Source of the DNA: an uncultured Verrucomicrobiota bacterium
GTDB lineage: Bacteria; Verrucomicrobiota; Verrucomicrobiia; Limisphaerales; UBA1100
Length of the DNA stretch: 62,134 nt
Direction: 5' to 3'
NCBI GenBank assembly: GCA_902551155.1
Contig: CACDBG010000004.1
Location: forward strand, 1 to 62,134
Positions 20,545 through 57,155 of the stretch are shown here, piece by piece; position 1 is the stretch's first letter, and each line of letters begins with the position of its first letter. The notes below the pieces were generated by a model that did no database searches, was not told the origin of the DNA, and saw only the letters and a list, made by a program, of their open reading frames with translations. Both the position numbers and the translations under genes were made by a program.

Positions 20545-22071
20545 TCATTGTTGATAGAAATAATTTCCCAAAAGTTGTTTGATTTTTTCCTTATGAACAT
20601 TTTCAAGCATATACGTCCACGCTAAGATGATGAATAAGGCAAGTGTCAGTGTATGTGCTATGTTTTCGCTCGCACCAAAGAAACACAATGTCGTGTAGGC
20701 CGATATTGGCGCAATCATCAGGAGGGTATATTTTAAATAAACATCGCTAATATATTTTTTGATATCTATTTTAAAGTATCTAACTGCAATCAACATCAAG
20801 GGGCCAAAAGATCGCAGAATAAATATAGCCGCAACGCCAGAGGCCACCCCCAATAAACCAAGATCAAATTTCACAATGTTTATATACCCTATGATCAACC
20901 CTGTAAGGACAATGATTAATTCCAGCATTGAAATGATTATATGTTGGCCAACAAAGGACAATATCTTCCGCGCATATAGAGATGGAATTGAAAAAGAAAA
21001 AGGTATGATGATGACTAAAGTTAAATGGTAAATTGTATTTATTTCGCTTTGGCCAATATTCAACCACATATTTAAAAAAACTTTGCCAAAAGCTGCAAAG
21101 ATGATGGTTATAAAAGTTGCCAATATAAGTGAATATCTAGAGAATTGTATAAATGTCGTATATAATACGTTTACTTTATTTTGTGCGTGCAATTGTGATG
21201 CTTGAGGCCCGATGAAAGATACTGGGACGGTTAGAAATTGCATTATTGAAGCAACCAAAAGCATTGTTATTGAAAATAAGGCAACACCCTCGTCAATTCC
21301 GTTCACGAGCCCGATTAAAAGTGGGGTTCCTTGTCGTAGGGTAGTAGCACTTGCCGCTACAATCATCACAGATGCCCCAATGGTAAAAATTTGTTTTAAA
21401 TGGGGAGCAATGTTACTGAATGTATCATTTATGTTTGCGATAGCATTTGTTTTTAAAGCTAACATAAACTGAATGGCATGGATTATAAAATTAGATCCAT
21501 AGTAGATCAAAGCAAGAAGAAGCAGATCTAATAAATTTAAGTAAGCAATAAGGTATAAAACACAAACCCGTAGAATAATTAATACCGTCTCGACCCTTAA
21601 ATGGACATAAAATTTATGGTTAGATTCTAATATGCTGATTCCACATCTAAGCGGTAGGTTTACTGCTGTAATAATTAACGCAAACTTTAATGCATATTGA
21701 GCGCCATCAGGCGCACCAGTTAACTTGAATATAGAAAAAAAGAGTTCAACAAGATCCTGTGAAAATAATGCAATCGACAAGGCAATCGATAATAGCAGGA
21801 ACAAACAAATTATTGTTACCTCTCCTGATTTTTTCTTGTCATCGAGCGCAAGATACTTTGAAGAAATTCTAATTAAACCAGTGGGTATGCCCAATTCTGC
21901 AAGTTGTATGTATGCTGAAAACTGTGTTATGAGAAACCAAATGCCGGCAAACTTAAGACCTAAGGTATCTACAACTAACGGAGCAAGAATTATGCCTTGG
22001 CCAATTAGTGCAATATTTCTCAATACTTTTACATAAGTATTCTTAAAAAGGTTTTCCCGGAATAAATTCAC
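20545..22071 (-). CDS. Oligosaccharide flippase / polysaccharide biosynthesis protein (Wzx-like) #1
   Basis: About 12 TM segments. N-terminal FAGIWFLITQFSAYIQLAELGIPTGLIR resembles MOP flippases. Confidence 0.82.
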   Translation of the reverse strand: MNLFRENLFKNTYVKVLRNIALIGQGIILAPLVVDTLGLKFAGIWFLITQFSAYIQLAELGIPTGLIRISSKYLALDDKKKSGEVTIICLFLLLSIALSIALFSQDLVELFFSIFKLTGAPDGAQYALKFALIITAVNLPLRCGISILESNHKFYVHLRVETVLIILRVCVLYLIAYLNLLDLLLLALIYYGSNFIIHAIQFMLALKTNAIANINDTFSNIAPHLKQIFTIGASVMIVAASATTLRQGTPLLIGLVNGIDEGVALFSITMLLVASIMQFLTVPVSFIGPQASQLHAQNKVNVLYTTFIQFSRYSLILATFITIIFAAFGKVFLNMWLNIGQSEINTIYHLTLVIIIPFSFSIPSLYARKILSFVGQHIIISMLELIIVLTGLIIGYINIVKFDLGLLGVASGVAAIFILRSFGPLMLIAVRYFKIDIKKYISDVYLKYTLLMIAPISAYTTLCFFGASENIAHTLTLALFIILAWTYMLENVHKEKIKQLLGNYFYQQ

Positions 22072-22158: not shown

Positions 22159-22833
22159 CTAAATGTTAGGCATTTTCGACTGATCAATAAAAGTAATTGA
22201 AATCTCAGGCAAATTTTCAGTCAATTCTTCCGTAAGAATTTTCATATTATCCACGTCTTTTATGTTTAAGAAAAAAACAATATTCAATTTTCCATCAGCC
22301 ATTTCGTACCTTCGAAGATCTGCCATATCTGTGTGTCGCCCCACAATATCCGAAATTGTACCTAAATTATTTCCCCCTCCCTGAGATTCAATTGATAGGA
22401 AATATGTTGTGGGGCTTGCTTTGGTGTTATTACCTTTAGTCAAGGCCATAAGGATCAATATCAAAAGGCCAGCGGTGATGGTGCTAACCGTTTGATTAGC
22501 CCCAAGACCCAGACCTATAGCAATTGAAATAAACAAATAGGCAAGTTCTTCAGGTTCTTTGATCGGCGTTCTAAAGCGTACAATTGAAAGTGCCCCAACC
22601 AAACCAAGCGACAATGCTAATGACGATTTAACCACTGAGATAACTAGGATCGTGGTCAAGATGATAAAGGGCAAAACAGCAGCAAATGATGCCTTATTGC
22701 TCAATACCGATGAATATTTTCTATAGTGATAAGTTACGCACCACGCAAGAATATATCCAATTAATAGGTTAAGCAGTAACGAGCCGACCGACAGTTCATC
22801 TAGGCTGGTAAGTGAAATAATTTTTTCTTTCAT
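22159..22833 (-). CDS. DUF4956 membrane protein
   Basis: VVKSSLALSLGLVGALSIVRFRTPIKEPEELAYLFISIAIGLGLGA is the DUF4956 signature. Confidence 0.85.
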   Translation of the reverse strand: MKEKIISLTSLDELSVGSLLLNLLIGYILAWCVTYHYRKYSSVLSNKASFAAVLPFIILTTILVISVVKSSLALSLGLVGALSIVRFRTPIKEPEELAYLFISIAIGLGLGANQTVSTITAGLLILILMALTKGNNTKASPTTYFLSIESQGGGNNLGTISDIVGRHTDMADLRRYEMADGKLNIVFFLNIKDVDNMKILTEELTENLPEISITFIDQSKMPNI

Positions 22834-22867
22834 TTTTTATTATTGTTAATCGTGTTTTTCTAACTAG

Positions 22868-23539
22868 TCATTGCATAATAGAGCTTACTGAATTTACATA
22901 CTTCGAGTTTCTGGAATTGCGTAATGGTATGTCACCTATTTCAGATGTTACAGCTTCATAGGATGATGGATCGTACTTCAACTCTATTGCCATATATTCG
23001 GTTGTAGCTGTTCTATGGGTTATATTAATGTTATCTGATAAAGTTTGATCATAGACTTCATGGCTTTGGTCTAGGGTGAGACGTATTCCCCCGCATTTTG
23101 AAATAAAATAAGACCGTATATACCTATTCAAAATTATCGGCAAACTATTATACTGGATAATGGTACGCCATGCTGCATTACCATGATTTGTAATTTTTTT
23201 GTATAAGCTACTGTGCGATGTCACATTATCTGTTATATCAATCTTAACCGACTCTTTGTAACCGTAAGAATTAATTCTATTCTTTAGCTCTAACGTACCC
23301 TTGCATGGATATAATGAATCTCCATACCATCGATATCTAAGTTTTGATCGTTTACTAATTCCGTCAAGGTTATCGGCATACGCAGCATATTCGAAGGTAT
23401 CATAATATATATTGCTGATTAGCCTGCCGGGATATTGCTTCCTGAAACAAAATGCAGACAGTGTTACCCACGATAAGATTTCAGATTCATATAAATCAGA
23501 ACATACAAACTTATTTTCGTATCTCAACGGTTTATCCAT
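22868..23539 (-). CDS. VTC-domain polyphosphate polymerase-like protein
   Basis: LRYENKFVC, IYYDTFEYAAYADNLDGISKRSKLRYRWYG, GTLELKNR, ILNRYIRSYFIS, IRLTLDQ and MAIELKYD match the basic/acidic residue pattern of VTC tunnel enzymes. Confidence 0.85.
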   Translation of the reverse strand: MDKPLRYENKFVCSDLYESEILSWVTLSAFCFRKQYPGRLISNIYYDTFEYAAYADNLDGISKRSKLRYRWYGDSLYPCKGTLELKNRINSYGYKESVKIDITDNVTSHSSLYKKITNHGNAAWRTIIQYNSLPIILNRYIRSYFISKCGGIRLTLDQSHEVYDQTLSDNINITHRTATTEYMAIELKYDPSSYEAVTSEIGDIPLRNSRNSKYVNSVSSIMQ

Positions 23540-23547
23540 AAATAATA

Positions 23548-26154
23548 CTACTGCCTATTTGATTTCATTATGCCTTGATATAAATCTTTTACGGGAATTC
23601 TCACTTTTTTAATACTCCTACCGTTAAATATAATTTTTGAATGTTCGTCACACAAAATGTCCCCGTCATCGTCAATTTTTGTATTATGGGAGCTGATTGT
23701 TCCCCCAGTAAATTCATTCTTTTTCATATAAGCTATTATTGGTGCATATGAACAATTGGAAAGATCTGAGTTATGCAAGCTTACAGAAGAACCATCCTTT
23801 GATGCTAGGCCTACAGATGCCGTTCGAACGGTAACTCCCTTTACTTCAATGTTTGACCGTTCTCCTGCCGAGATAGCCTTATCGGATATTACATTAAATA
23901 CCGATTGTGAAATTGCTGATAAACTGCCGCTAAAATCTGCCGCATCTCCGCCCCCAAGAAGTCCAATATTATTAAATTCGCATTCCAAAATTTTCCCAAT
24001 TGAAAAATCGATATCTACCGCATCTGAATTAGTGTCTTGGAAAAAGCAGCTTTTAATAATATATTCTGACCTTATAACATTGAGAGCGTCTTCGGATTTT
24101 ACCGAGTGCATATTAAGATTTATGATATTTATATCACTTTTATAAACAGTAAATGCTCCAGTTAATGTAACAAAATCGTAAGATACTGGCCCAACATTTT
24201 CCATTCGGAGATTTTTAACTAAATTTGTTTTTCCCGTTTCCTTCAAATACAACCATCCAGCAGTTCCGTCTCCAATGAACTCGACTGGCTTCCCTGTCCC
24301 ACCTATATTTACTGGAACCTTGGAAACAACGCCAGAGCCATTAGTAAATCGAAGCTTCACCGCGGGAGGAATAATAAATTTATCGTAGCCTCCTAGGACA
24401 AGAACCTGATCGATATCCCACTCCCCTTCGCAAAAAGCAATGGTGTTATTTTTCTCATCATAATTAAGTATGTTTGATTCCAGCAGTTTATTTACATAAT
24501 GCTCATGATTATTTATTTTGCTAATTTCAGGATAATAATTTTGTACACTAACCTTACTAGTATAACTCTTATCAAGCGGCGAGACTATACAAGCTGCCCC
24601 ATTTAAAAGATCGAATGGGACATCGTATATTTTGCTATAATCCATTTTTTCCTGCGAGCTCCTTGCATCCATCTTGAAGGGTAAATATTGGTTAAAATAT
24701 TTTCCCAATTTTTCATTTTTTATCGGGTCTTCATGAATGATGTCTAGTATTTGCATCTTTTTAGGTATGGCGCTCGCGATCTGCAAATCAAAGCAACCCG
24801 ATTGGTTGCCCTCTACTAGAAATATATGTGCCGGCTTGATATTTGAATAATCAATGGGAATTACACGGGTTTTCAGCAAATGCTCCTGAATATATTTTGA
24901 CCGTTTTAGCAAATCTGAATAATCGTATGCTTCAAGAAGGTAAAATTCGCTAATTAGCTGCTTCAAATATATTTCTTCTTTGGCTGACAAATCCTTCAAA
25001 AGATCTGTATTTGATATGTCTCCTGTAATTTGGGCCAATGATTCGGTGTATGATTTGTGAATAACTGGATCTGATAAAATCAATTTGTAGAAGGGGCTAT
25101 CGATATACGCAGTATAGTTCATTCGTTCATTAAAATTATCGTCATACCCAACAGGCTGCAATTTGCTTGTATAAGGGTTGTAATAGAATCTTAAATTACC
25201 CCATCTCACGCCATGTTGAGCTCCGAACAATTCATTAATAGCCATGAATTTACCGATTTCATCAATATCGAAAACTTCTGAGGCTTTTAGTTTTTCTTCG
25301 ACGAATCCCCTTAACATACCAATTGCATTTATCCTGTGTATTTTAAGTTGTTTTGATTTAGATATTGCAGAATCACCGAAGGTATCTATCCGGGCGTTTT
25401 TATAATCAAATAACTTTCCGTATTTCCAGTAATCCGACTCGTCAAATCTAACAATGACAGATTCCTTGCGCCTGTTGTTTTCTATTAGCTCTTTGGAAAA
25501 ATGTTCTTCGATTTCCATCAACCCTACATCGTTCCCATTTAAGTAAACTCTTACAACTTTTCTTCTTAAAGTTATCAAACCATACGTTCCACGCATACAA
25601 TCTATGATGTATTGGCCTTGGAAACCTCTTACCATTGGATTTTGAATTGAAAACCTTCTCATGCCAAAAAGGCTTTCATCCTTTAAAACTTCAACACGAA
25701 AGGACCATTTATCACCTTGAATATGATCAACGTTGTCACCTTTGATACGAAGTTTAACCTTTATAGATTTTCCGGAATGCTCAATTGTGGCAGGCACAAA
25801 ATCATCTTGCTCCTGAGTGATATTGCCTTTAGCAAGAGATTCACGGACTTTAGACTGTATCTTCGAAAAGTTTTCAAATTTTACATCAATCCTGACTTTG
25901 TCAACGTCAGCAGAGTTCAAATGAGATTTAAGGTAACACAGGGGCGTTCTTTTTATTACAGAGCTTATGCTTTCAGGATTGATGGAATTATACCCCTTAC
26001 TAAAAAAATAGTTTCGTATATCCTGCAATTTCGAGAAAGCGACACCTAGCATGACAAGAACAATCGCGGACAACACAACTAAAGCTTTGTTTAAAAATTT
26101 TAGCGCGCGTTTATACTTTTTTTGCGGAGTAGCAAGTGTATTATTTATAATCAT
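23548..26154 (-). CDS. CotH-kinase-family protein with N-terminal TM anchor and C-terminal right-handed beta-helix-like region
   Basis: VRVYLNGNDVGLMEIEEHFSKELIE, MAINELFGAQHGVRWGNLRFYYNPYTSKLQPVGYDDNFNE are CotH-like. C-terminal third has beta-helix-like repeats (LRMENVGPVSYDF..INIINLNMHSVKSEDALNVI..). Confidence 0.82.
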   Translation of the reverse strand: MIINNTLATPQKKYKRALKFLNKALVVLSAIVLVMLGVAFSKLQDIRNYFFSKGYNSINPESISSVIKRTPLCYLKSHLNSADVDKVRIDVKFENFSKIQSKVRESLAKGNITQEQDDFVPATIEHSGKSIKVKLRIKGDNVDHIQGDKWSFRVEVLKDESLFGMRRFSIQNPMVRGFQGQYIIDCMRGTYGLITLRRKVVRVYLNGNDVGLMEIEEHFSKELIENNRRKESVIVRFDESDYWKYGKLFDYKNARIDTFGDSAISKSKQLKIHRINAIGMLRGFVEEKLKASEVFDIDEIGKFMAINELFGAQHGVRWGNLRFYYNPYTSKLQPVGYDDNFNERMNYTAYIDSPFYKLILSDPVIHKSYTESLAQITGDISNTDLLKDLSAKEEIYLKQLISEFYLLEAYDYSDLLKRSKYIQEHLLKTRVIPIDYSNIKPAHIFLVEGNQSGCFDLQIASAIPKKMQILDIIHEDPIKNEKLGKYFNQYLPFKMDARSSQEKMDYSKIYDVPFDLLNGAACIVSPLDKSYTSKVSVQNYYPEISKINNHEHYVNKLLESNILNYDEKNNTIAFCEGEWDIDQVLVLGGYDKFIIPPAVKLRFTNGSGVVSKVPVNIGGTGKPVEFIGDGTAGWLYLKETGKTNLVKNLRMENVGPVSYDFVTLTGAFTVYKSDINIINLNMHSVKSEDALNVIRSEYIIKSCFFQDTNSDAVDIDFSIGKILECEFNNIGLLGGGDAADFSGSLSAISQSVFNVISDKAISAGERSNIEVKGVTVRTASVGLASKDGSSVSLHNSDLSNCSYAPIIAYMKKNEFTGGTISSHNTKIDDDGDILCDEHSKIIFNGRSIKKVRIPVKDLYQGIMKSNRQ

Positions 26155-26160
26155 AAGGGA

Positions 26161-26838
26161 TTAATATTTAAAGTTTCCTTTGCCGTTATAAAATGAATTG
26201 AATATTTTGAGGGCAAGATCCTTACCGCAATTACCTCTAAGCACTTCTTTCCAAGAGTCTATTTTAGACTCCTCTATTTTTTTTAGATAACCATCCATCG
26301 TGTAAACTAGTACCTTGTCATAGCCAAGTGCAGATAGCACTGACATCCGGTGGTTTCCCTGAAGCACAATGAAACGTTTATCGTTATTTTTGTTTATTAT
26401 ATAAGTTCCACCAATAACGCTTTTATGCCTAACAACCTGGTGTCCGCTTTTTTTTATACTTTTATATAGATTTATTGTATCATTATATTGCTTTTGGATT
26501 TGGCCCAGTTCAGTGGGGCCGCAAAATCGGCTTTTTAGTCGGTCCTTTAATTTATTACACCCTAATCGGAATTTCCCCCAAGGGAACACGTACAGCGGCA
26601 AGTCACACATCGAACTGTCATAACCGAACGCCTGACACATGTCTTCTGGAGTGAATTTATTGTGATACCTGTACAAAGAAGTATTCTCTACACTTATATC
26701 CTCGTTGCGCTGATATTCTTTTATTGTTTTTACAATTGGGTGGAATCCCTCTTTGTTAAACTGTCTGCCGAAAATTGTAACCGCCTGGTCTACGTTAATT
26801 AACCTTGTTCTTAATATGGATTTCAGAAAGTTCTTCAC
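26161..26838 (-). CDS. Uncharacterised protein with ParB/Srx-fold-like motif
   Basis: IVLQGNHRMSVLSALGYDKVLVYTMD resembles the ParB/Srx (D/Q)GNHR motif. Located between a capsule glycosyltransferase and cotH. Confidence 0.55.
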   Translation of the reverse strand: MKNFLKSILRTRLINVDQAVTIFGRQFNKEGFHPIVKTIKEYQRNEDISVENTSLYRYHNKFTPEDMCQAFGYDSSMCDLPLYVFPWGKFRLGCNKLKDRLKSRFCGPTELGQIQKQYNDTINLYKSIKKSGHQVVRHKSVIGGTYIINKNNDKRFIVLQGNHRMSVLSALGYDKVLVYTMDGYLKKIEESKIDSWKEVLRGNCGKDLALKIFNSFYNGKGNFKY

Positions 26839-26854
26839 TACTTGTAGTGTATTT

Positions 26855-28381
26855 TTATAGATATGAAGAAATCTTTTTTTCTATATATTGACTGAAATAT
26901 TCAATTTCTTCAGATGCGTTTTCTCGTCCAATCATTGACACTCTTTTAGATTTTGCCAAATGTACGCTGTACATATTCATAGGAATACTCAATTTCATGC
27001 AAGCGGCCACATATGCCATTAATGCTTTTCTATCGTATTTATAATTTCTTATTAAACTCCTTAATTTCTCATCTAATAGAGTTAAGTCACCTATTTTCAC
27101 TACCATACTCTCCGGCAGAATCCCATACATCACGTTGCCAAAGACCGCTACGGGTTTGCCCATAAGCATTGCTTCAAAACCTACAAATCCACTAATTGTA
27201 GCTACCGCTCGTGATTTTTTTATCCATTTTGTTGGATGTGTGTCACAATCGACAAAGTATAAATTTGGTATTTCAAGCAATTTTTTATAATATCCCGGCC
27301 TTCGATAGGCTATGCTTCTTGGGTGTTCTTTAATCAAAACTTTCCACCCAATTGGCACGCATTGACACAATCTTCTAATAAGTTCGATTTGATTTTGGTA
27401 TTTAACCCCATGAACTGACAGTGCTGTTTCCGGTTCGGAGTGTAACGGGAAAAAAATGAAATCTGTTTCTCCAATATCATCATAACCTATAATCCTCGTG
27501 TCCATACATTTTCTAGATATCCAGCTATTTAGCCCAGACAATATCTTAGTGTACAACAGTCCGGAGTATACCGGCGGAACATGATTATCGTTTTTTGTTA
27601 TTCTTCTTTGAAAAGATAAAATCCTCTTTATTACACCTCCACTAGATTTAAGTATTCCTGTAATTGAATTCGAAATCCGTGGTCTTTCATAAATTAAATT
27701 GCCCTCATATTTCACGGGTGCATTTTTAGCATCATCTATATAATTTGTTGCCTCTTCCCTGAATGAATAATCATTATTTTTAAGATTATTTTGAAATTCA
27801 TTATCTATTTCTTTTGTGTATGCTCCAAAACTTTCACTCAGTATAATATTGTTTTTAACCTTAGTGAATTTTAGCTGTAGATACTGTATCTGGTTTACCT
27901 TAGCTGCAAAATAAAGCAGGTAGTCGCCATAAGTCGACGGCGTTAATGTCATTATTACGTCAGGTTTTATTTTGCTAATAATTGATTCTATAGCAAATAA
28001 TGATGAGTATATTATATCACACAACTCCTCATGGGTATATTTGCACGCATACTCCTGCCTCAACTTTGTGTTTTTTCCATACATCAATCTCCGGTCGCAC
28101 ACTATTGCATCCCATAGGTTGCAGTTGCTGTACTTATTTTTAATTTTAATTAAATTACTAGTATTGATAGTTTCCCTCTGCTTCCCCGTGTAATTCCACT
28201 CGAACAATAGCTTGACTCTTGGATCGTCTTTTAATGGCAGCTTGTGATTATTATTTAGATAATATTCAGAGTCTGATACCAAGTAAGCACTTTCTTTGAG
28301 GACACCTTTGTTTTTCAAGATTTTATCTACCTCTTGAAAAATATTTAAAAATCCACTTTGCGCTCCAAAAAAAATATTCAT
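26855..28381 (-). CDS. Capsule polysaccharide biosynthesis (KpsC/KpsS-like) glycosyltransferase
   Basis: FIFFPLHSEPETALSVHG, WKVLIKEHPRSIAYRRPGYYKKLLEIPNLYFVD and TISGFVGFEAMLMGKPVAVFGNVMYG. Confidence 0.75.
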   Translation of the reverse strand: MNIFFGAQSGFLNIFQEVDKILKNKGVLKESAYLVSDSEYYLNNNHKLPLKDDPRVKLLFEWNYTGKQRETINTSNLIKIKNKYSNCNLWDAIVCDRRLMYGKNTKLRQEYACKYTHEELCDIIYSSLFAIESIISKIKPDVIMTLTPSTYGDYLLYFAAKVNQIQYLQLKFTKVKNNIILSESFGAYTKEIDNEFQNNLKNNDYSFREEATNYIDDAKNAPVKYEGNLIYERPRISNSITGILKSSGGVIKRILSFQRRITKNDNHVPPVYSGLLYTKILSGLNSWISRKCMDTRIIGYDDIGETDFIFFPLHSEPETALSVHGVKYQNQIELIRRLCQCVPIGWKVLIKEHPRSIAYRRPGYYKKLLEIPNLYFVDCDTHPTKWIKKSRAVATISGFVGFEAMLMGKPVAVFGNVMYGILPESMVVKIGDLTLLDEKLRSLIRNYKYDRKALMAYVAACMKLSIPMNMYSVHLAKSKRVSMIGRENASEEIEYFSQYIEKKISSYL

Positions 28382-28803: not shown

Positions 28804-29499
28804 TTAAATTTCATTACTCTTTAAAATAGCCTCAGCGTAAATAAAATCCAACATACTATCAATATTAACAGTGAACTCATTTTCTACTTTAACAAAAGCT
28901 GAGTTTTCATCAAATATCTTGTTAGTCTCCAACAAGAATCCTGTTTTAAACGCGTATATGTTACCGACATGCAAATATATATCATCAAGGTCAAATCTGG
29001 ATGTGACTTTTTTACTATTAACAAAAAACTTTTCAAAATTTCCGATCTCATTTTCTTTATACATATGATGAGGATGGGCGTGGTCTATCTTCGTAATTGA
29101 TATTACACTCTCACTCTTCTTTTCAATAATCTCTTCTATGGCGTTATCAAAGTGTTTTACCTGCGTAAAAGGTGAAGAAGGTTGTAAAAGCACACATATA
29201 TCATACTTTCTACCACTAGCCATTAGTTTATTTAAGCAATATATTAATACATCAACAGTTGTAGCATTGTCTGTGGATAGGTGATCGGGCCTCCTAAAGG
29301 GCACCTCGTATCCAATTTCCTTTCCAATATTAATAATTTCGACATCATCCGAAGATAGGATCAATGTATTATCGTATTTCGATGATTTTGCTACTTCATA
29401 AGGATATTGAATTAACGGCTTCGCACCCAATAATTTGATGTTCTTTCTTTTTACACCCTTAGAACCACCTCTGGCGGGCACTATTGTTAAAATCCTCAC
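28804..29499 (-). CDS. neuA: Acylneuraminate cytidylyltransferase (NeuA-like CMP-nonulosonate synthetase)
   Basis: IVPARGGSKGVKRKNIKLLGAKPLIQYPYEVA, RRPDHLSTDNATTVDVL and LLQPSSPFTQVKHFDNAIE. Confidence 0.88.
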   Translation of the reverse strand: MRILTIVPARGGSKGVKRKNIKLLGAKPLIQYPYEVAKSSKYDNTLILSSDDVEIINIGKEIGYEVPFRRPDHLSTDNATTVDVLIYCLNKLMASGRKYDICVLLQPSSPFTQVKHFDNAIEEIIEKKSESVISITKIDHAHPHHMYKENEIGNFEKFFVNSKKVTSRFDLDDIYLHVGNIYAFKTGFLLETNKIFDENSAFVKVENEFTVNIDSMLDFIYAEAILKSNEI

Positions 29500-30617
29500 A
29501 AATGCCTCTCTAACTGTAATAGCATAGAAATGTTTTCAGTGTAATGATTCATTAATGGTGAATTCATTCTTAGTTTCATAGTTAGTAAATTATATCTTTC
29601 AATCAATTCATATAATACTTTGTTGTTAATTTCTCTAAGAAAGCGAACCCTATTGCAAATATTGGCGACTATACCTTGATAACCTTTGATATTAACTGTA
29701 GCTGTATTTTCAGTTAATCCCTTTTCATTTAAATAAGCTGTTTCTGATTGATCCATCATTTCTGAAAAGGATGTAAAGTTTTTCATCACAATGTTTTCAA
29801 TTTCATTCCAGCTACTAGAACTATTAACCTGCATACCAATTAAGTCCAATTTGTTAAATATGTTAGATGGATCTGTTATATTGTTCACACCATTTTGGTA
29901 ATTATCGCAGTCACTTAGTTGTTCTTTTTCTTCTTCATTCATTAAAGCTTGATATATTTCATTCACATAGACAGCTGAAATATGTAACTTATCATTCTTA
30001 AAGCAGTTGTCACTGGAATCATATGTATACCAGGGAAAAAGAGCGTCAAAATAATAGCCAGAATTTATGAGCTTATTAACTACATCCACTTTTTCGATTA
30101 CATAAAAACCATTGTTTAAAAACATGAAGTCAGCCTTATTTATGTTTTGGAACTGGTGAGTATAATTTCCATAATAACGTTCGACTCCGGCTGGCAATTC
30201 ACTCTCAAATATAATTATAATTTTAGAATCTGGAAATTTTGATTTAACTAACCTAGTATATTCCTGAAAATAGTTCGCATAATTAGTCCAAGTATATTTT
30301 GTTTCTTCAATCTTAATTTTTTTGTCTTTGACTTGGTCTAGCTCTAAATACCTGCCATTAATTTTCACATATTTATCTCTAACAAAAAATTGCGGCATTG
30401 TTATGACAATTTTATCATATTTCTCTTTTTCAGAAAATCCCAAATAATAATTAGTTGGAGCACTTGTCGTAATGGAGTTTTTTAGCTCTTCTGAATATGA
30501 AGAGGGGTTATTGAGAAAAGAATAATTTGTACACCATTTATATCTACAATGCTCATTAACTTGGTTATGGATATAGTATAAGTATCTAGCTAAACAGTTG
30601 CCTAAAAATAATGTCAT
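29496..30617 (-). CDS. Hypothetical protein, possible SGNH/GSCFA-type hydrolase
   Basis: N-terminal LFLGNCLARYL, mid IIIIFESELP, late NDKLHISAVYVNEIYQALM resembles the DxxH block. No firm family assignment. Confidence 0.4.
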   Translation of the reverse strand: MTLFLGNCLARYLYYIHNQVNEHCRYKWCTNYSFLNNPSSYSEELKNSITTSAPTNYYLGFSEKEKYDKIVITMPQFFVRDKYVKINGRYLELDQVKDKKIKIEETKYTWTNYANYFQEYTRLVKSKFPDSKIIIIFESELPAGVERYYGNYTHQFQNINKADFMFLNNGFYVIEKVDVVNKLINSGYYFDALFPWYTYDSSDNCFKNDKLHISAVYVNEIYQALMNEEEKEQLSDCDNYQNGVNNITDPSNIFNKLDLIGMQVNSSSSWNEIENIVMKNFTSFSEMMDQSETAYLNEKGLTENTATVNIKGYQGIVANICNRVRFLREINNKVLYELIERYNLLTMKLRMNSPLMNHYTENISMLLQLERHL

Positions 30618-31516
30618 TTTCTGTACCTAATTAAATTCAGAAGATCATTTATTTCATTCGTCAAATCATAATTAGGTGTGGAAGGTTTTTGTTTAGAGCA
30701 AAGAAAGCCAACTAAGTGCCCGTCATATATAACTGATGTAGCAAGGATGGAAAATCCTACATCTTGTAATATGTTGAATGTGGATTGATAGGAGAAGTTA
30801 TGAGGATGATCAAGTTTAATGCTCTTTTCTATGCCGCGATTGATTAACATGTACTTAAAATCAACAATATCGATAAAGAAAATACCATCATTAGTTAATG
30901 CATGATAAATAATAGTTAACGATTTTCTTATATCAAATAAATGATCAATTGTTTGGCATAATATAATTAAATTATATTTCTCATCTATACCCTCCAGGTT
31001 TTCAATAAAACCATTTTTTATATTTAATCCATTTTCTTTAGCTATAGCTAGCTCATCCATTGATGGATCTATGACTGTTGCATCAACGTCTATGCCATCA
31101 TAGTTATTGGTAAATTCATCTTTTAAAGCTTTTGATACAATCCCTGTGGATCCACCAACATCGAGTAAATTGATCTTATCAAATTTGTTAACTATATGTG
31201 GCTTTATGAATTCATATACACTGTTTGCGTATACTTCTTGTTCATTCTGAATTGTTATTTTATCAATTTTCCTTTTGTTAAAACAGCTAACTAATTGTCT
31301 GTAAGACTTATTGTAGAATTCCATATAACTTTCTTCACTCATGCGAGGAGAAATAAACACAACGCCACAAGACATACACAAATTACTTCTAACATCATAT
31401 CCGTATCGATCTTTGTCATATATAGAAAAGTAGTTATTTGACCCACAGCAAGTGCATTCTTTGACACAAACCATGTTTTTATTTTTATAATCAAATAAAT
31501 GGGTGCAGCTATTCAT
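30614..31516 (-). CDS. SAM-dependent methyltransferase with N-terminal Cys-rich zinc ribbon
   Basis: ECTCCGSNNYF...LCMSCGVVFISPRMSEESYMEFYN, then LLDVGGSTGIVSKAL and LIILCQTIDHLFD. Confidence 0.8.
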   Translation of the reverse strand: MNSCTHLFDYKNKNMVCVKECTCCGSNNYFSIYDKDRYGYDVRSNLCMSCGVVFISPRMSEESYMEFYNKSYRQLVSCFNKRKIDKITIQNEQEVYANSVYEFIKPHIVNKFDKINLLDVGGSTGIVSKALKDEFTNNYDGIDVDATVIDPSMDELAIAKENGLNIKNGFIENLEGIDEKYNLIILCQTIDHLFDIRKSLTIIYHALTNDGIFFIDIVDFKYMLINRGIEKSIKLDHPHNFSYQSTFNILQDVGFSILATSVIYDGHLVGFLCSKQKPSTPNYDLTNEINDLLNLIRYRK

Positions 31517-31663
31517 ATTATTTTTTTAAAATAATTTTCTAAAACTCAATCAACATTTGTTAAAACCATCTGCAATTCCGTTGCTTGAACGCATATTTTT
31601 CCCTGAGACTCCCCTTTGGAACCTCTCTGGCAGACGACAGGCCTAAGACAAGTTTCTGTAGCC

Positions 31664-32623
31664 TCATGCCATATATCCCAACTCCCCGACGGCTAACTCC
31701 GCCATCCGCTCCTCGGTAATATGCATCGCGTCACTGGTGCAGCCTCCGATATGAGGAGTGATAATCACATTCAACCCATCTCGTGCAGCACTCACTAAAG
31801 GGGATTCCATTGGCGAAACCTTCGAATGTTCATCGTGGAGAACATCGACGGCCACACCTCCCAGTCGATTTGCGCGAATCGCCTCCCCTGCCGCATGTTC
31901 GTCAAGCAAGGCCCCGCGAGCGGTGTTGACTACAAGGGCATGCGAAGGGAGTCTTGTTATTTCTGAAGGCCCTATTAGGCGATGGTTTTCGGACGTTAGC
32001 TTCGCATGAATAGTAAGGATGTCAACATCGGCCATCAGGGAATCAAGGTTCCTCCGTTCTACCAGAAGTTCTTCAAAACGAGCTTCCGGCTGGAAAGGGT
32101 CGTAGGCGAGCATGCGCATCCCAAGTGCCTTGCCATAAAGAGCGAGGTGCCCGCCTATTCGTCCCAACCCGATAATACCTAACGTTAAGCTGGAAAGTTG
32201 GCGACTCCGATAAGCGTCACGGTCCCATAGCCTTTCATGCACCACCTCGCGGTTAGCTTGGGGAATCTTTCGAAGTAGGCTGATGATCAGGCCCAAGGTT
32301 AATTCAGAGGTGGAAGTGACTTCATCAATCGCCTCCTTGCATTGGGCCAAAGACAAAACTCGAATACGACGTTCTCTGCAAACGTTCATATCGATATGAG
32401 TGAGTCCCGTGGTAGGGGAAACTATGGCCTTTAAGGCAGGGTATCTCGAGAGATATTCTTCGTCCATTCGGTGGGCTAAGCGAACCACCAACACCTTAAC
32501 CTCTTCGAAGCGATTTACCGGAATTTGACCTAGGAAAACCTCTCCGAATGCCTTGCGATACAGATTGATAGCTCGCTCACTGTAGTGAGCTGACTCAGTG
32601 ATAAGCAGCGCCATAATTCTCAA
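31664..32623 (-). CDS. D-isomer-specific 2-hydroxyacid dehydrogenase
   Basis: TLGIIGLGRIGGHLALYGKALGMRMLAYDP, ALVVNTARGALLDEHA and ITPHIGG. Confidence 0.87.
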   Translation of the reverse strand: MRIMALLITESAHYSERAINLYRKAFGEVFLGQIPVNRFEEVKVLVVRLAHRMDEEYLSRYPALKAIVSPTTGLTHIDMNVCRERRIRVLSLAQCKEAIDEVTSTSELTLGLIISLLRKIPQANREVVHERLWDRDAYRSRQLSSLTLGIIGLGRIGGHLALYGKALGMRMLAYDPFQPEARFEELLVERRNLDSLMADVDILTIHAKLTSENHRLIGPSEITRLPSHALVVNTARGALLDEHAAGEAIRANRLGGVAVDVLHDEHSKVSPMESPLVSAARDGLNVIITPHIGGCTSDAMHITEERMAELAVGELGYMA

Positions 32624-33783
32624 CGAAGGGGATAGTGGAGCTTTTTTTGAGAATAAGGAACGAATCTCTTTAGTTTCTCGATAATGCGAGCACTTGCGTT
32701 GCCGTCACCATAAATGGTGCCGGGTTCATATCGGCCATTGTCCAGCTGTAGCTGAACAGCCGACTTGATTTGATCGGCGACAGGTGCGACGACAGTCAAA
32801 TTATCACCGTGTTCTCTACCATCCTGTCGGTCCCCAATTAATACTACTGGTGTTCCAGAAAAAGTAGAGTCACGTACAAAACTCGAGGAGTTACCGACAG
32901 CGCAAATCGCCTTCTTTAAACACTTTTGAAAATACTTGGGGCTGAGATTTTTTATTAAATGTAACCATTCCGAGGAATTTTTTTCGCGGTAGACTCGAAT
33001 TGCCTTTGATATGTTGTCGCTCCCCGCATCAATATTTGGCCAAAGCCAAACCGTAGGCAAAGCCAATTCATGGAGCGCAGCGATCAACTGCTCTGCTTCC
33101 TCTCTTTCGTTTCCGAATTTCGTTGTAACTGGATGATAAATGACGAGCAAAAAGGGTCTTTCTAAATCAATACTTGCGCCAACCCCTCCCCATGTGAAGA
33201 TATCAACGGGTAAATCGGTATCTAATTCCCGAATATAATCCCCAGCAGGACAGCCCACGTTATGCACGTAGGCAGGATCCTCTCCCATTCTCACTAAATA
33301 ATCTGCTGCTCGTTCTGTTGCCGGAAAATGAAGATGAGAGAACTTTGTAATAGCATGACGAGCACTCTCGTCAATAGACCCAGAAATCTCACCCCCTTGG
33401 ATATGGGCTATAGGAATGTTCATATAGGCTCCTGCGATTGCGGCGGATAAGGTTTCATTTCTATCCCCAATGAGCAAAATCATGTCCGGCTGCAATTGCT
33501 GGTAAACGTTAGTAAATTCAATGATTCCCAAACCAATGCTCTTAGCCATCGTGACAGGAACTGAGCCCTCCACTTCCATGAAAACTCGGCGATCTATCGA
33601 AAAGCCATCTTCTTCGACCACTTTTGCGGCATTTCCGAAACGTCCCAACAGCATCGTTCCCCCGCAGACTGTCTGCAGTGTAAATTCATTATCCTCAACA
33701 ATAGCCCGCATAACAGGAAACATGCGGCCGTAATTAGCCCGATCAACCAACACCACACAAATCTTACGAATCTTTTGGCTCAT
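32620..33783 (-). CDS. neuC: UDP-N-acetylglucosamine 2-epimerase (hydrolysing, NeuC-like)
   Basis: MILLIGDRNETLSAAIAGAYMNIPIAHIQGGEISGSIDESARHAITKFSHLHFPAT, VGNSSSFVRDSTFSGTPVVLIGDRQDGREHGDNL. Confidence 0.87.
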   Translation of the reverse strand: MSQKIRKICVVLVDRANYGRMFPVMRAIVEDNEFTLQTVCGGTMLLGRFGNAAKVVEEDGFSIDRRVFMEVEGSVPVTMAKSIGLGIIEFTNVYQQLQPDMILLIGDRNETLSAAIAGAYMNIPIAHIQGGEISGSIDESARHAITKFSHLHFPATERAADYLVRMGEDPAYVHNVGCPAGDYIRELDTDLPVDIFTWGGVGASIDLERPFLLVIYHPVTTKFGNEREEAEQLIAALHELALPTVWLWPNIDAGSDNISKAIRVYREKNSSEWLHLIKNLSPKYFQKCLKKAICAVGNSSSFVRDSTFSGTPVVLIGDRQDGREHGDNLTVVAPVADQIKSAVQLQLDNGRYEPGTIYGDGNASARIIEKLKRFVPYSQKKLHYPLR

Positions 33784-34813
33784 AAAGATCTTCTTCTTGT
33801 AGTTGCTCGTTCTGATCATACTTCCGCATTACTGCTTTACCAAGTATTCGGTCGATATCTTTACCCAAAATTCCTGTCCCTGGCTTTTTAAAAGTAAGGT
33901 CGTCTAAGGCCAGAACATGCCCTTTATCCAATTTATTTTTTGCATGAATACTCCGGCCGAAAAGCACTTTGAGTTCCTTCATTCCATTACTTAGTTTATC
34001 TTTATCAGTTGGAGCAGCTAACATTCTTTCAGTATAACGAACTCCTTCTACAAGTTGTGAGACCTCGTCGATCGTTAAGGAAGCAGAAACATCTGGCCCA
34101 AAGCAATCCCTAGACAACACCACATGTGTCTCCAGTAGAGACACACCCATCGAGGCCGCCGCCAATCCAGGATATATGGTTCCTGAATGATCTGAAAGGC
34201 CCACTGGGCACATATACCTCTCGCGTATTTCATTTAGCACATTCAAACCTATTTCCTCAGGCGAACAAGGGTATGCCGTTGTACACTGAAATACCGCCGC
34301 CTGACTGCCTCTTTTGCTAACTTCAGTGACAGCCATATCCACTTCGGACCACGAAGACATCCCCGTTGAAATAAGAACTGGTTTCCCCGTTTGTGCCACC
34401 TTTCGTATAAGGGGAAGATTTTCAACATCCCCGGAGCCAATTTTCCAAGCCGGAATGTCCAATGACTCCAGCAGCTCCACTGCCTCCAGCGAGAAAGGAG
34501 TCGATAGAAAGATCAGGCCTTTGTCATTCGCATGCGCTGCCAAGCCTTGCCATTGCTCATGAGTAAACTCCATTCTCTTCCAATAATCGTATCGGGTATC
34601 ATCCTGCGGAAAACATTTTACCCGGAATCGTTCGTCGGTAGAGGATTCCGCCCTGGCTATGTGAGTTTGGAACTTTACCGCCTGCACCCCTGTCTTGGAT
34701 ATAGCATCTACATAGGCGTGTGCCATACCCAAACTGCCGTCATGAGCCTGCCCCACTTCAGCAATCATAAAACACTTATTGCCTGATCCTATTTTCTCTT
34801 CGCCTATAAACAT
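33764..34813 (-). CDS. neuB: N-acetylneuraminate/nonulosonate synthase (NeuB-like, with SAF domain)
   Basis: FMIAEVGQAHDGSLGMAHAYVDAISKTGVQAVKFQTHIA, KIGSGDVENLPLIRKVAQTGKPVLISTGMSS, QCTTAYPCSPEEIGLNV, C-terminal SAF region GRSIHAKNKLDKGHVLALDDL. Confidence 0.9.
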   Translation of the reverse strand: MFIGEEKIGSGNKCFMIAEVGQAHDGSLGMAHAYVDAISKTGVQAVKFQTHIARAESSTDERFRVKCFPQDDTRYDYWKRMEFTHEQWQGLAAHANDKGLIFLSTPFSLEAVELLESLDIPAWKIGSGDVENLPLIRKVAQTGKPVLISTGMSSWSEVDMAVTEVSKRGSQAAVFQCTTAYPCSPEEIGLNVLNEIRERYMCPVGLSDHSGTIYPGLAAASMGVSLLETHVVLSRDCFGPDVSASLTIDEVSQLVEGVRYTERMLAAPTDKDKLSNGMKELKVLFGRSIHAKNKLDKGHVLALDDLTFKKPGTGILGKDIDRILGKAVMRKYDQNEQLQEEDLYEPKDS

Positions 34814-36882: not shown

Positions 36883-37789
36883 TTAGCACAGATTTAATTC
36901 ATTCATAATCTCTTGCAAATACTCGCGATACTCACAATCAGGCATCGCCTTCACTAAATCTTCAAATTGCCCAACGGATAAGAGTCCAGAACGTAGCGCA
37001 GCCTCCTCTGGACATCCGATTTTGATTCCTTGGCGTCTCTCAATGGTCTGCACATACGCCGAAGCGTCTTGTAGGCTGCTGCTCGTGCCCGCATCAAGCC
37101 ACGTAAAGCCACGTTCTATTTTTTGTACGTACAACTTTCCGCGCCGCAAATATTCCGTATTCACATCAGTAATTTCTAGCTCTCCTCGCGCCGAGGGAGT
37201 AAGCGCCTTGGCTATAGTCACAACATTATTGTCATAAAGGTATAAGCCGGGAACAGCGTAATTACTCTTAGGCTTCTTCGGTTTCTCTTCAATGGAGATT
37301 GCTTGCCCTCTGGAATTGAATTCTACCACCCCGTATCGCATGGGGTTATTCACATGGTAACCAAAAACAGTTGCGCCCCCCCCCAAACTCGCCAAAAGCT
37401 TTCTGAAACTCATTTCCCCCATAAAAAATATTATCACCTAGAATGAGCGCAACATGGTCGCTGCCAATAAACGATTCCGCTATAAGGAATGCCTCTGCAA
37501 TACCTGCTGGCTTGGGCTGCTCACGGTACTCAATCGAAAGGCCCCACGTTTTTCCATCTCCAAATAATTCTTGATATCGAGGTAAATCAAGAGGTGAGGA
37601 AATCAGACACAATTCTTCTACCCCGTTCTCGATTAACGTTGTTAATGGATAGTAGACCATAGGCTTATCGTATACCGGCTGGAGCTGTTTGCTTGCCACC
37701 AGCGTAAGCGGGAAAAGTCGCGAGCCAGAACCCCCCGCGAGAATGATCCCCTTCCTGATATTTTCCTTCATAGTATACTTTCCGCTCAA
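36883..37789 (-). CDS. rfbA: Glucose-1-phosphate thymidylyltransferase, split by a frameshift at a G9 tract
   Basis: ORF 37346..37789 ([40 protein letters not shown]...[22 protein letters not shown]) and ORF 36883..37437 (...[22 protein letters not shown]...[38 protein letters not shown]) are the two halves of one RmlA, joined at C9 (37376-37384). Confidence 0.9.
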
Positions 37790-53558: not shown

Positions 53559-56500
53559 TTATCGTTCCTGGATCATTGGAGCCTCGAAAGAAGCTATAGA
53601 AGCTCCGTTAACTCCATTCCATATACGCAATACAGCATCTGCGCCACCGGCAGCCACGATATTTCCATCAGCTGAAATAGCCCCAGAATAAACGTAATCG
53701 GTTGACCCTGAAAAATCGCGTATATTTTTCGGAGTTCCCATCGGAATACTAACCCTGCGAACTCGATTGTCGCCAGCAGTAACCACTGCATTATCTGAGT
53801 ATCCCACGAATTGAATGGATGTTACCTCTTTACTTCCCACGCCAAACTTTCCGGCTCGTTCACCGGTCACTACATTCCACACTTTAATTTCATTGTCAGC
53901 CCCTACGCTCGCCAGAACCCGACCATTGTATTGCCATGCAACTCCAAGAACATGGTGAGTATGTCCTTCAAAAGAATGGAGAATTTTGCCATCAGCCAAA
54001 TTAACTATCTTAGCAAATTTATCGGCTCCTCCACTAGCAATCTGTGTACCTCCAGCATTAAACTGTAACCCCATCACTGTATCACTGTGAACTTCTAGGA
54101 GATTCTTTGTAAGCTTACCATCAGCCACATTAAAGACATGAACTGTTCCGCTACGACTAGGCTCACCGCTCCCCGCCGCTAATTGTTTGCCATCGTAACT
54201 GAAGCTCAATGCGGTAGCCCGATCGACAATCGGAGAATCTACCCTTCCTGTTCCCAGTGTTCGTTCCAACTTCCATTCATCGGCTAGGCTCCAAACTTTT
54301 GCAGTTTTATCCCTGCTAACCGAAATCAATTGTCCGGAAGGGTTTATCCCCAGCCCATTGACTGCCCCATTATGCCCGCTAACGCTTTTAATCTGCTTAC
54401 CCTCAGCTGTATTCCAAATATAAATGGTGTTGTCCGTCGATCCTGTAACCAGCCTCTTGCTATCTGCCGAAAAGGTAATCGCAACCGTCGGTGCGGTCGC
54501 TTTAGCTAAAGCATCCTTCGCTAATTGCACTGCGCTATCGGCATCGGCTTGCAGCTTGTCCGCCCCAGCTTTCTGCGCTTCAGCCTCCTTCTTTGCCGAC
54601 TCCGCTTTTACCAATGCTTCTTTGGATAGCTTGGCTTCGTTAGCCGCCTGTTGCCGAGGCTCTTCGAGCTTTTTATGCTCACCCTCAGCTGCAGTAACTT
54701 TCTTAACCGCTTCGTCTAGGGTTTTTTTAGCAGCCACCTGTTGTTTGTTTAATTCATCACGTTTCTTCTGTGCTTCAGAAGCTAACTTGCGTTTTTCAGC
54801 CGACACTTTGGCCGCCGCATCAACCCGTGCCTTTACTTTATCTGCCATAGGCTTTGCTGCTGCTGCTGTCTTCGCCGCCGCTGCCGCCGCTTTATTAGCG
54901 GTATCAAATACTTTTTGTGCAGCACTTACTTGGCCTTTTACTGTAATCACAGTGGCATCTGCAGCTTTCTGTGCTGCTTGTGCTTGTTTCCATGCATTGG
55001 CAGCCGCGGCCACGGCGGCCCCTGCCGCCTTGTCATTTGCTTGCGCCTGTGCCAATTCTGTCCTCACTGTATTTGCTATATTCCGTTTTTCAAAAGCCGC
55101 TTTGGATGCCGCTTCTTTTTCTTCAGGGGTTTTATTTGGATCTTCCGCTGTCTTCCTAGAGTTTTCTTCAGCAACTTTCGCTGCGTTATCTGCTTCGGTA
55201 AATTTTTTCAGAATGCCTGCCGCTGCCGTTCTCGCCGCAACCAGCCCTTTATCTGCGGCAGCTTTTGCAGTCGCAGCAGTACTAACTGCCGTTTTTGCTT
55301 TTGCTGCTTTAAGCTCTGCAGATTTCAGCTGTGTTTGTCCTAGGTTATCTAATTTCTTTTTTGCTGTCGCTGCCGCAGCCATCTTTGTTTTTGCGACCTT
55401 ATCTTTATTGGTAAAATCTGCCACCGGAGCTCTCGACGCATCAATAGCCTTTTTGGTAACGGCCTCAGCCTCCTTAGCGGCCTTATCCTGTTCTTCAAAA
55501 GTCTTTAGGATGGCATCATAGTCCGCCTTGAGTTTGGTGTATCTTTTTTCCTCGCTCTTTTTCGTAGCTTCGGCTTCATCAAAAGCCTTTTTCTTTTCAG
55601 CAATCGGCATTGCTTCGGCTTTCTTAAGTGCTTCATTCGCTTTCTTCACCCGATCATCAGCTTTTTTATGATTATCCGTTTTAGTTTTTAGATTTGCTAT
55701 GTAATAAGTCACTTCAGCTTTAGCGTAAGCGGCAAAACGATCTTTATTTGCTGAAGCTTCCATCATCTTTCGATTGCCCTTTAGATCTGCAACCAATTTG
55801 CCATCAGCCGCATTGAAAAGTCGCGCATTCTTATCCTTCAACACACAAGCAAAGCGTTTACCATCCGGGCTTGCAGCAACTGCAGCAATAGCCCCTCCAG
55901 CCGCGATTTGGCGCACCATTTTGAAACCATTAATATCCCAATGACGGAGAGTGCTGTCGCCCGCGCCTGAGATCAACTGTGTCGACGCACTGCTCAACGG
56001 AGCCAGAGCTGTTACCGCCGCAGCGTGCCCCTTCAGCTCGCCGGCAATCACAAGCTTATCTGTAACATTGTAAATTGTGATAAGATTGGTCTCCCGTGCA
56101 ACAGCCAATTGCTTGCCTTCTGCGACAAAGATAACGGCATTAATTTTTATTGGAGGCACCCCAAAAGGTTTTTCTCCCTCCTTAGGTGGAACAGGTGGGT
56201 CTATAGTAAAGGATTTACCATCAGCTACATTCCACACCAATAATCCTCCATCTTCAGCACCTGCGGCTACTTGAGCACTGTCAGGAGAAAAGGCAACCGA
56301 GGTCGCTGCTCCTTTTAGTCCTGATAATCCTTTAAGGGCATTCCCTTTAACCATATCATAGACCTTAATTAAATTTCCTTCAGCTAATGCCAACCATTTG
56401 CCATCGGGGCTTACTGCATGAATACCCTTATCAGAACCAAGGGTAAATGACTTGGCGGCGTTAATGGGCTGCCTGCGCCAGAGTTTTACTTCTCGATATC

Positions 56501-57155
56501 CACCGCTTGCGAGCAGATCTCCGGTTGGATTAAAAGTCAACGAATGAACCAGATCCTGATGGCTAACTCCCTCCTTGTATTTTCCATCTTTAATCAACTC
56601 TGGATCAGTCAATCGCGTGACCAGCGACTTGCTTGGAATATGATAAATAAATATTTGATTTGCCCGGCCTGCTGCAGCGTATTGTCCGTCAGGTGAAACT
56701 GAAACAGAATAAATTGGGTTTAACCCTGGAGGAAGAGGCTGCCATTCAACCTTTCGGGCTGAACGAATTTCGCCCTTTGCGCCTTGCTCAATCCACAGTT
56801 TAAGCAGGGCCAATTCCTGAGGGCTTAGGTCTTTGGCCGAAGCTTTATTTTCTTTTGGAGGCATGACGGGGTCCTCAAGATGCGCTGCACTTTGAAACAG
56901 CAGGCTTTCCGCCGGCTTCCCGGGAACAACAATATCCGCTTCAGCGATGTCCTTAGGTGTTTCGAGGATAACATCGGCCTTTGATTTAGTTTGGTTATGG
57001 CACGCCAAGCAATTTGCACGAAAGATTGGCAGAATTTCATTCTGAAAATCAACCGGCGTCTTCCGGGCTAGGCTGGCGATCGGCAGGCCGGCGGCCTCCG
57101 CAGCCATTAAGGAAGAAAGAAACAATAAAATAAGGGAGACAAATTTAGTGATCAT
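53559..57155 (-). CDS. Planctomycete-type cytochrome c / WD40 protein with long Ala/Lys-rich coiled coil inserted between propeller halves
   Basis: Signal peptide, PIFRANCLACHNQTKSKADVILETP (CxxCH), WD40 repeats on both sides of an approximately 400-aa KA-rich helix (about 54490-55740). Confidence 0.82.
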   Translation of the reverse strand: MITKFVSLILLFLSSLMAAEAAGLPIASLARKTPVDFQNEILPIFRANCLACHNQTKSKADVILETPKDIAEADIVVPGKPAESLLFQSAAHLEDPVMPPKENKASAKDLSPQELALLKLWIEQGAKGEIRSARKVEWQPLPPGLNPIYSVSVSPDGQYAAAGRANQIFIYHIPSKSLVTRLTDPELIKDGKYKEGVSHQDLVHSLTFNPTGDLLASGGYREVKLWRRQPINAAKSFTLGSDKGIHAVSPDGKWLALAEGNLIKVYDMVKGNALKGLSGLKGAATSVAFSPDSAQVAAGAEDGGLLVWNVADGKSFTIDPPVPPKEGEKPFGVPPIKINAVIFVAEGKQLAVARETNLITIYNVTDKLVIAGELKGHAAAVTALAPLSSASTQLISGAGDSTLRHWDINGFKMVRQIAAGGAIAAVAASPDGKRFACVLKDKNARLFNAADGKLVADLKGNRKMMEASANKDRFAAYAKAEVTYYIANLKTKTDNHKKADDRVKKANEALKKAEAMPIAEKKKAFDEAEATKKSEEKRYTKLKADYDAILKTFEEQDKAAKEAEAVTKKAIDASRAPVADFTNKDKVAKTKMAAAATAKKKLDNLGQTQLKSAELKAAKAKTAVSTAATAKAAADKGLVAARTAAAGILKKFTEADNAAKVAEENSRKTAEDPNKTPEEKEAASKAAFEKRNIANTVRTELAQAQANDKAAGAAVAAAANAWKQAQAAQKAADATVITVKGQVSAAQKVFDTANKAAAAAAKTAAAAKPMADKVKARVDAAAKVSAEKRKLASEAQKKRDELNKQQVAAKKTLDEAVKKVTAAEGEHKKLEEPRQQAANEAKLSKEALVKAESAKKEAEAQKAGADKLQADADSAVQLAKDALAKATAPTVAITFSADSKRLVTGSTDNTIYIWNTAEGKQIKSVSGHNGAVNGLGINPSGQLISVSRDKTAKVWSLADEWKLERTLGTGRVDSPIVDRATALSFSYDGKQLAAGSGEPSRSGTVHVFNVADGKLTKNLLEVHSDTVMGLQFNAGGTQIASGGADKFAKIVNLADGKILHSFEGHTHHVLGVAWQYNGRVLASVGADNEIKVWNVVTGERAGKFGVGSKEVTSIQFVGYSDNAVVTAGDNRVRRVSIPMGTPKNIRDFSGSTDYVYSGAISADGNIVAAGGADAVLRIWNGVNGASIASFEAPMIQER

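Follow-up and report, generated by a model that had tools for sequence, protein, structure and literature searches.

A real, conserved operon encodes a DUF4956 membrane protein, a VTC-domain protein and a CotH-like protein. In its predicted structure the CotH-like protein has a new architecture, a fusion of an N-terminal transmembrane helix (TM), a CotH fold and a right-handed beta-helix, here called CotH::beta-helix. We read this three-gene module, with a probability of about 0.4, as a system for membrane-coupled phosphate chemistry outside the cytoplasmic membrane, in which VTC would make polyphosphate, DUF4956 would provide the coupling and CotH::beta-helix would modify a surface polymer. 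The gene set itself was already known and functionally unexplained; what is new is the CotH::beta-helix form and the spread of the set beyond Pel loci.

Gene organization in the window

The window is the whole stretch of 62,134 nucleotides that was analysed. Four consecutive open reading frames were confirmed on its minus strand, co-directional as the sequence-only reading had described them. They are separated by gaps of 6, 8 and 34 nt and transcribed in the order GNHR protein, CotH-like protein, VTC and DUF4956. These genes, two codons discussed below and the two adjoining genes are:

20545-22071, minus strand: candidate Wzx-like flippase adjoining the module, 508 aa (hydrophobic by inspection; no Pfam match)
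22159-22833, minus strand: DUF4956 membrane protein, 224 aa (Pfam E 1.2e-15)
22868-23539, minus strand: VTC / triphosphate-tunnel protein, 223 aa, probable polyphosphate polymerase (Pfam E 1.2e-20)
23548-26154, minus strand: CotH::beta-helix fusion, 868 aa (AF2, Foldseek, family profile against 5jd9)
25141-25143, minus strand: Asp338 codon of the CotH-like protein, equivalent of CotH D251 (D in 36/43 relatives)
25213-25215, minus strand: His314 codon of the CotH-like protein, at the position of the CotH catalytic Asp (B. subtilis D228; H in 39/43 relatives, two independent profile alignments)
26161-26838, minus strand: GNHR-motif protein, 225 aa, tentatively ParB/Srx-like (weak SerK and SbnI matches)
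26855-28381, minus strand: Capsule_synth family protein, 16 nt upstream of the GNHR gene (Pfam PF05159, E 3e-9)

The genes had been placed in a capsule locus, and this setting holds. The window carries a large surface-glycan cluster with NeuB, UDP-GlcNAc 2-epimerase, a CMP-sugar transferase, EpsG, Capsule_synth, a Polysacc_synt flippase, glycosyltransferases and aminotransferases. The first three of these lie at 28804-34813, and their combination suggests a capsule with a nonulosonic (sialic-like) acid. No Pel gene was recognised in the scanned part of the window. The GC content is about 30-38% in the 20-31 kb region, compared with about 41-48% across most of the remaining window, and from this low GC the segment 20000-31000 is likely a capsule segment acquired laterally. 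The module copy itself may have come by lateral transfer, as hinted at by its low GC and by closest homologues that belong to other phyla, although the tree does not settle its placement.

Elsewhere in the window, a protein of 1198 aa with many WD40 repeats is encoded at 53559-57155. Two overlapping ORFs on the same strand, at 36883-37437 and 37346-37789, may be one frame-broken gene.

Distribution and composition of the module

A scan with the DUF4956 alignment, taking one genome per species, gave 552 relatives, and the nearest 80 were kept with their flanks. In 59 of these 80 loci all three module genes lie within about 6.5 kb. Of the 21 incomplete loci, 16 reach a contig end. Complete loci among the nearest 80 span 12 named phyla. 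They belong to Pseudomonadota, Bacteroidota, Chloroflexota, Myxococcota, Nitrospinota, Planctomycetota, Acidobacteriota, Omnitrophota, Calditrichota, Cyanobacteriota and Verrucomicrobiota, and to one archaeal MAG, which is counted in the 12 and calls for caution. The co-occurrence of VTC, DUF4956 and CotH in other bacteria, which the sequence-only reading had set as its own test, is borne out by these loci. Complete or isolate genomes with the module include Sulfidibacter corallicola, Candidatus Uabimicrobium amorphum, Pseudoalteromonas, Photobacterium malacitanum and Flagellimonas flava.

The genes are closely packed, with gaps of 50 nt or less in 116 of the 139 adjacent same-strand gene pairs. 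Between CotH and VTC no more than 50 nt intervene in 41 of 44 loci, and in 34 of the 44 the two genes overlap. VTC is found in 203 of 293 genomes of one order. The CotH::beta-helix family is rare in the window's phylum (6/289 genomes at E 1e-20), and three of these match mainly the beta-helix. A plasmid search with the CotH-like protein returned no match. Among viral contigs the GNHR protein had no match and the DUF4956 search gave one locus only, for which reason we do not regard the module as viral.

In another family of the window's phylum, L078 (9274-13462) holds a very divergent module of DUF4956, CotH::beta-helix and VTC, enclosed in a glycosyltransferase/aminotransferase cluster. In five loci of the window's order (L057, L058, L060, L062, L063) beta-helix-like proteins adjoin large CotH/lamin-tail-like proteins, as if the two fusion partners also occurred apart.

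The GNHR gene shares one operon with the module in the window and lies outside the conserved module. The sequence-only reading had counted it as the fourth member of the unit, and the packing of the four genes does fit a unit in which two kinases and VTC act together. Against this, a GNHR homologue is absent from all 80 module loci, and a match was found in 2 of 196 genomes of the window's order, one being the window's own; the other carrier has a distant relative beside methyltransferase-like genes, without the module. The neighbourhood comparison thus largely refutes the four-gene unit, which we consider highly improbable, and the GNHR protein was excluded as a module member. Its proposed ParB/Srx-like nature is tentative: the GNHR motif fits, but no curated ParB/Srx or SerK profile matched, and the similarities to SerK (E 0.014, 14.6 bits, cut-off 380) and SbnI (E 0.077, 12.3 bits, cut-off 350) are below threshold.

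VTC and its membrane partner

The VTC protein is probably a polyphosphate polymerase, judging from its family and its conserved residues. It matches the VTC Pfam family (PF09359) with E 1.2e-20, and the best PDB match of its family profile is yeast Vtc4 (3g3q, E 5e-12). The expected tunnel motifs ENK, KLRYR, ELK, RYIRSYF, RLTLD and ELK are present, as had been claimed, and 21 columns are invariant over 49 relatives, among them R6, E8, K10, K66, R68, R70, K86, R142, R153, E186, K188 and K213. In the alignment with 3g3q, Vtc4 R264 and R266 fall on R68 and R70. R142 and R153 are aligned to 3g3q as well, in keeping with a Vtc4-type tunnel, and we take their Vtc4 counterparts to be R361 and R373. 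E186 and K213 match Vtc4 E426 and K458 by motif, the 3g3q alignment ending before both. In yeast, R264, R266 and E426 are residues altered to inactivate the VTC complex (PMC9911596), and K458 is catalytic (PMC4641920). Membership of the VTC family is also compatible with another activity of triphosphate-tunnel (TTM) proteins, and E8 is similar to the acidic patch found in TTM hydrolases.

DUF4956 (PF16316) was assigned with E 1.2e-15 (58.1 bits, cut-off 30.6). Its AF2 model (pLDDT 87.5) has five predicted helices and a C-terminal ferredoxin/ACT-like domain, whose ACT-like Foldseek matches reach E of about 2e-3 to 2e-2. An ACT domain has been reported for the DUF4956 relative of S. intermedius (PMC12345266). 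Several basic residues are conserved, K69 in 54 of 55 sequences and R86, R88 and K92 in all 55. A known channel fold was considered for the membrane part and rejected, as it has no PDB match.

A membrane-anchored CotH fused to a beta-helix

The CotH-like protein was modelled with AF2 from 43 relatives (pLDDT 85.7, pTM 0.82). The model consists of an N-terminal TM (residues ~20-45), a CotH fold (~80-430), a linker and a right-handed beta-helix (~545-850). Its top Foldseek matches in the PDB are the B. cereus CotH kinase structures 5jd9 and 5jda (E 6e-12, TM-score 0.72 of the target), and the family profile matches 5jd9 with E 3e-15. Homologues were found down to E 8e-132. By single sequence the CotH match is marginal: hmmscan gave none, and a six-frame search with PF08757 gave 25.5 bits against a cut-off of 23.8. 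Single-sequence PDB searches with the CotH-like and VTC proteins likewise returned chance matches only, so that family profiles were needed. By fold and profile the protein belongs to the CotH kinase family (PF08757). A literature search that lay mostly outside subscription papers turned up no description of the CotH::beta-helix form.

Of the 43 relatives, 42 have a hydrophobic segment close to the N-terminus, and in 36 the flank on the N-terminal side of this segment is the more positively charged one. From this TM and its charge bias, both the CotH and the beta-helix domains are predicted to be extracytoplasmic, anchored by the single N-terminal TM.

The sequence-only reading of a membrane-anchored CotH-like kinase thus stands for the anchor and the fold. 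For the kinase the picture is mixed. The DG Asp of CotH was identified with B. subtilis D228 because the next conserved Asp (D251) follows at a spacing of 23 residues, and the D228Q mutant of B. subtilis CotH is inactive (PMC7821199). Two independent profile alignments, HMMER against 5jd9 and hhalign against canonical CotH proteins, place His314 at this position, where 39 of 43 relatives, the window included, have His in place of the catalytic Asp. The DG Asp is present in the canonical CotH proteins of the window's genome and of related genomes. The D251 equivalent, Asp338, is kept in 36 of 43 relatives and Asn320 in 35 of 43, and E216 is also kept. Catalytic residues are therefore lost in part: the VTC tunnel is intact and Asp338 remains, with His at the CotH catalytic position. 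This His-variant domain may act as a kinase or may be inactive. The few exceptions to His314 include the module copies of Pelagibacter (SAR11; L090 and L144, genomes of ~1 Mb), with neither His nor Asp at the active site.

The family-conserved His and the beta-helix second half had both been overlooked by the sequence-only reading. The beta-helix carries a near-invariant set of polar residues, D689, N692, D711, D714, D716, D737, D740, S742, D758, K759, E765, K786, D787, K811 and K812, which likely marks an active face. The Foldseek matches that follow CotH are parallel beta-helices of glycan-active enzymes (GH87 glucanase, AlgG, RbmB).

Glycan genes and phosphoesterase or pyrophosphatase neighbours

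Glycan loci are a recurrent setting of the module, not the rule, and many copies lie outside obvious glycan loci. Glycan genes occur within 6 kb of the module in 24 of the 80 loci. Enrichment beside the module is not clear, since such genes turn up among distant neighbours as well as among close ones. The glycan genes of the window have homologues in 11 of the 80 loci only.

Enzymes acting on phosphate accompany several copies. One metallophosphoesterase family has homologues in 14 of the 80 loci, with N-termini that by eye resemble signal peptides. Metallophosphoesterases lie between module genes in L103, L128, L154 and L159 and adjoin the module in several other loci. Inorganic pyrophosphatases (PF00719) with signal- or lipoprotein-like N-termini are found within 300 nt of the module in three loci (L083, L155, L156).

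L103, 3449-4531: calcineurin-like phosphoesterase inside or beside the module
L154, 3634-4827: calcineurin-like phosphoesterase inside or beside the module
L159, 10668-11807: calcineurin-like phosphoesterase inside or beside the module
L128, 9021-9884: calcineurin-like phosphoesterase inside or beside the module
L133, 6544-7464: calcineurin-like phosphoesterase inside or beside the module
L083, 9067-9714: inorganic pyrophosphatase (PF00719)
L155, 14419-15024: inorganic pyrophosphatase (PF00719)
L156, 9214-9819: inorganic pyrophosphatase (PF00719)

These linked enzymes are the best independent hint of phosphate products outside the membrane. The window copy of the module has no linked phosphatase or pyrophosphatase.

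Comparison with described systems

CotH, poly-phosphate polymerase and DUF4956 were reported as a triad beside Gram-positive Pel loci in 2020 (PMC7112168). This triad shares with the module the three families, a link to an exopolysaccharide and a secreted CotH with an extra C-terminal domain, which is FN3 in the Pel-locus triad and a beta-helix here. In S. intermedius the triad corresponds to SIR_1592-1594, where deletion of DUF4956 lowers aggregation and raises Pel and deletion of CotH lowers both, Pel not being lost in either case (PMC12345266). The same 2025 study found no synteny of the triad outside Pel loci (PMC12345266). On the contrary, we found that this synteny does occur outside Pel, in the 59 complete loci of 12 phyla. 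PelG scored above its cut-off in 1 of 50 module genomes, and linkage to pelDEADAFG is not a feature of them.

VTC/CotH gene clusters were reported in 2010 in NELoc-2 of C. perfringens (PMC2879425). As in the module, genes of VTC-domain proteins, paired "tubulin/FtsZ" genes, a CotH gene and a glycosyltransferase stand side by side there (PMC2879425), and we infer that the "tubulin/FtsZ" genes are DUF4956. The CotH of NELoc-2 is a separate protein, with no beta-helix reported, whereas that of the module is fused (PMC2879425).

The window's genome also holds a canonical set on contig C6 (L008, 7445-13642), with an EF-hand/CotH/lamin-tail-like protein, DUF4956, VTC and then, where the contig ends, a CotH that carries ankyrin-like repeats. 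The three families thus stand in one row as in the module. Its CotH proteins keep the DG Asp, with EF-hand-like, lamin-tail-like or ankyrin-like parts in place of the beta-helix, and, unlike at the window module, no glycan genes were recognised nearby. The CotH spore-coat kinases (5jd9/5jda) share the fold and several conserved residues with the module protein, which differs from them in the His at the catalytic Asp position, the TM anchor and the beta-helix fusion.

The yeast VTC complex (Vtc1/3/4) resembles the module in its Vtc4-type tunnel residues and in a membrane partner with conserved basic residues. Yeast polyphosphate synthesis is coupled to translocation, a likeness that for the module would be one of analogy. 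By the tests run, DUF4956 is not homologous to the TM domain of yeast Vtc1; the module also differs in having no SPX domain and an extra extracytoplasmic protein.

Proposed mechanism and alternatives

From the computed operon, fold, topology and residue patterns we infer polymer export, the donor and the substrate as follows. VTC would polymerise polyphosphate from ATP on the cytoplasmic side, in line with its family and conserved residues. DUF4956, with its nearly invariant basic patch and its soluble ACT-like domain, would anchor VTC and might pass the nascent chain through the membrane, by analogy with the yeast VTC complex, where polyphosphate moves through a basic TM channel (PMC9911596). 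Outside, where topology places both domains of CotH::beta-helix on their single anchor, the altered CotH domain may take phosphoryl or polyphosphoryl groups from the exported polyphosphate, which is proposed as donor because ATP is not expected there. These groups may then be put on a surface polymer held by the beta-helix, in the window the capsule glycan, and the secreted pyrophosphatase and phosphoesterase partners of some copies could clear products or reverse the mark. In its most specific form, this would be ATP-independent extracytoplasmic phosphorylation: VTC polyphosphate threaded through DUF4956 would serve as donor for a His-variant CotH that marks surface polymers, spread over at least a dozen phyla. 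We hold this form only tentatively.

The exported polyphosphate may instead be the product itself, as a surface or stored polymer made through VTC and DUF4956, with CotH::beta-helix capping or anchoring the chain or attaching it to a glycan or lipid, without transfer of single phosphates. The constant core of VTC with a membrane partner would agree with this, as would the frequency of VTC in one order (203/293 genomes), a Lys/Asp-rich beta-helix face that could bind an anionic chain, and the linked pyrophosphatase. However, the CotH and beta-helix domains each show a nearly invariant pattern like that of an active site, which suggests that they do more chemistry than binding alone, and we regard this reading as possible, if rather unlikely. 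An ordinary protein kinase or pseudokinase, which controls the neighbouring biosynthetic machine by phosphorylation or binding, has been proposed for the Pel-linked CotH (PMC7112168). The retained CotH fold with E216, Asn320 and Asp338 would suit such a role, and so would the S. intermedius deletions of CotH or DUF4956, which lower aggregation and change the amount of Pel (PMC12345266). This explanation appears unlikely for the module, as the predicted topology puts the domain outside, where ATP is scarce, His occupies the catalytic Asp position in 39 of 43 relatives, the fusion to a beta-helix suggests that the substrate is a polymer and the constant presence of VTC would go unexplained.

The beta-helix could also be the part that does the catalysis, as a glycan hydrolase, lyase or epimerase, with CotH as a sensor of phosphate or nucleotide and with VTC and DUF4956 supplying the signal. 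Its set of conserved polar residues is the strongest, and the folds closest to it are those of glycan-active enzymes. Those fold matches are weak and non-specific, though, and the CotH part is likewise conserved as a nucleotide-site-like domain, which makes this arrangement quite doubtful.

Bacterial surface polymers are modified outside the membrane, in a space with little ATP. If polyphosphate exported by the module supplies the CotH-like enzyme with energy or phosphoryl groups, this would explain how extracytoplasmic polymer modification is powered. It would also give a function to bacterial VTC and DUF4956 proteins and an explanation for the triad beside Pel loci. The spread across phyla, the translational coupling and the cultured carriers (Pseudoalteromonas, Photobacterium, Flagellimonas and Sulfidibacter) make the module directly testable.
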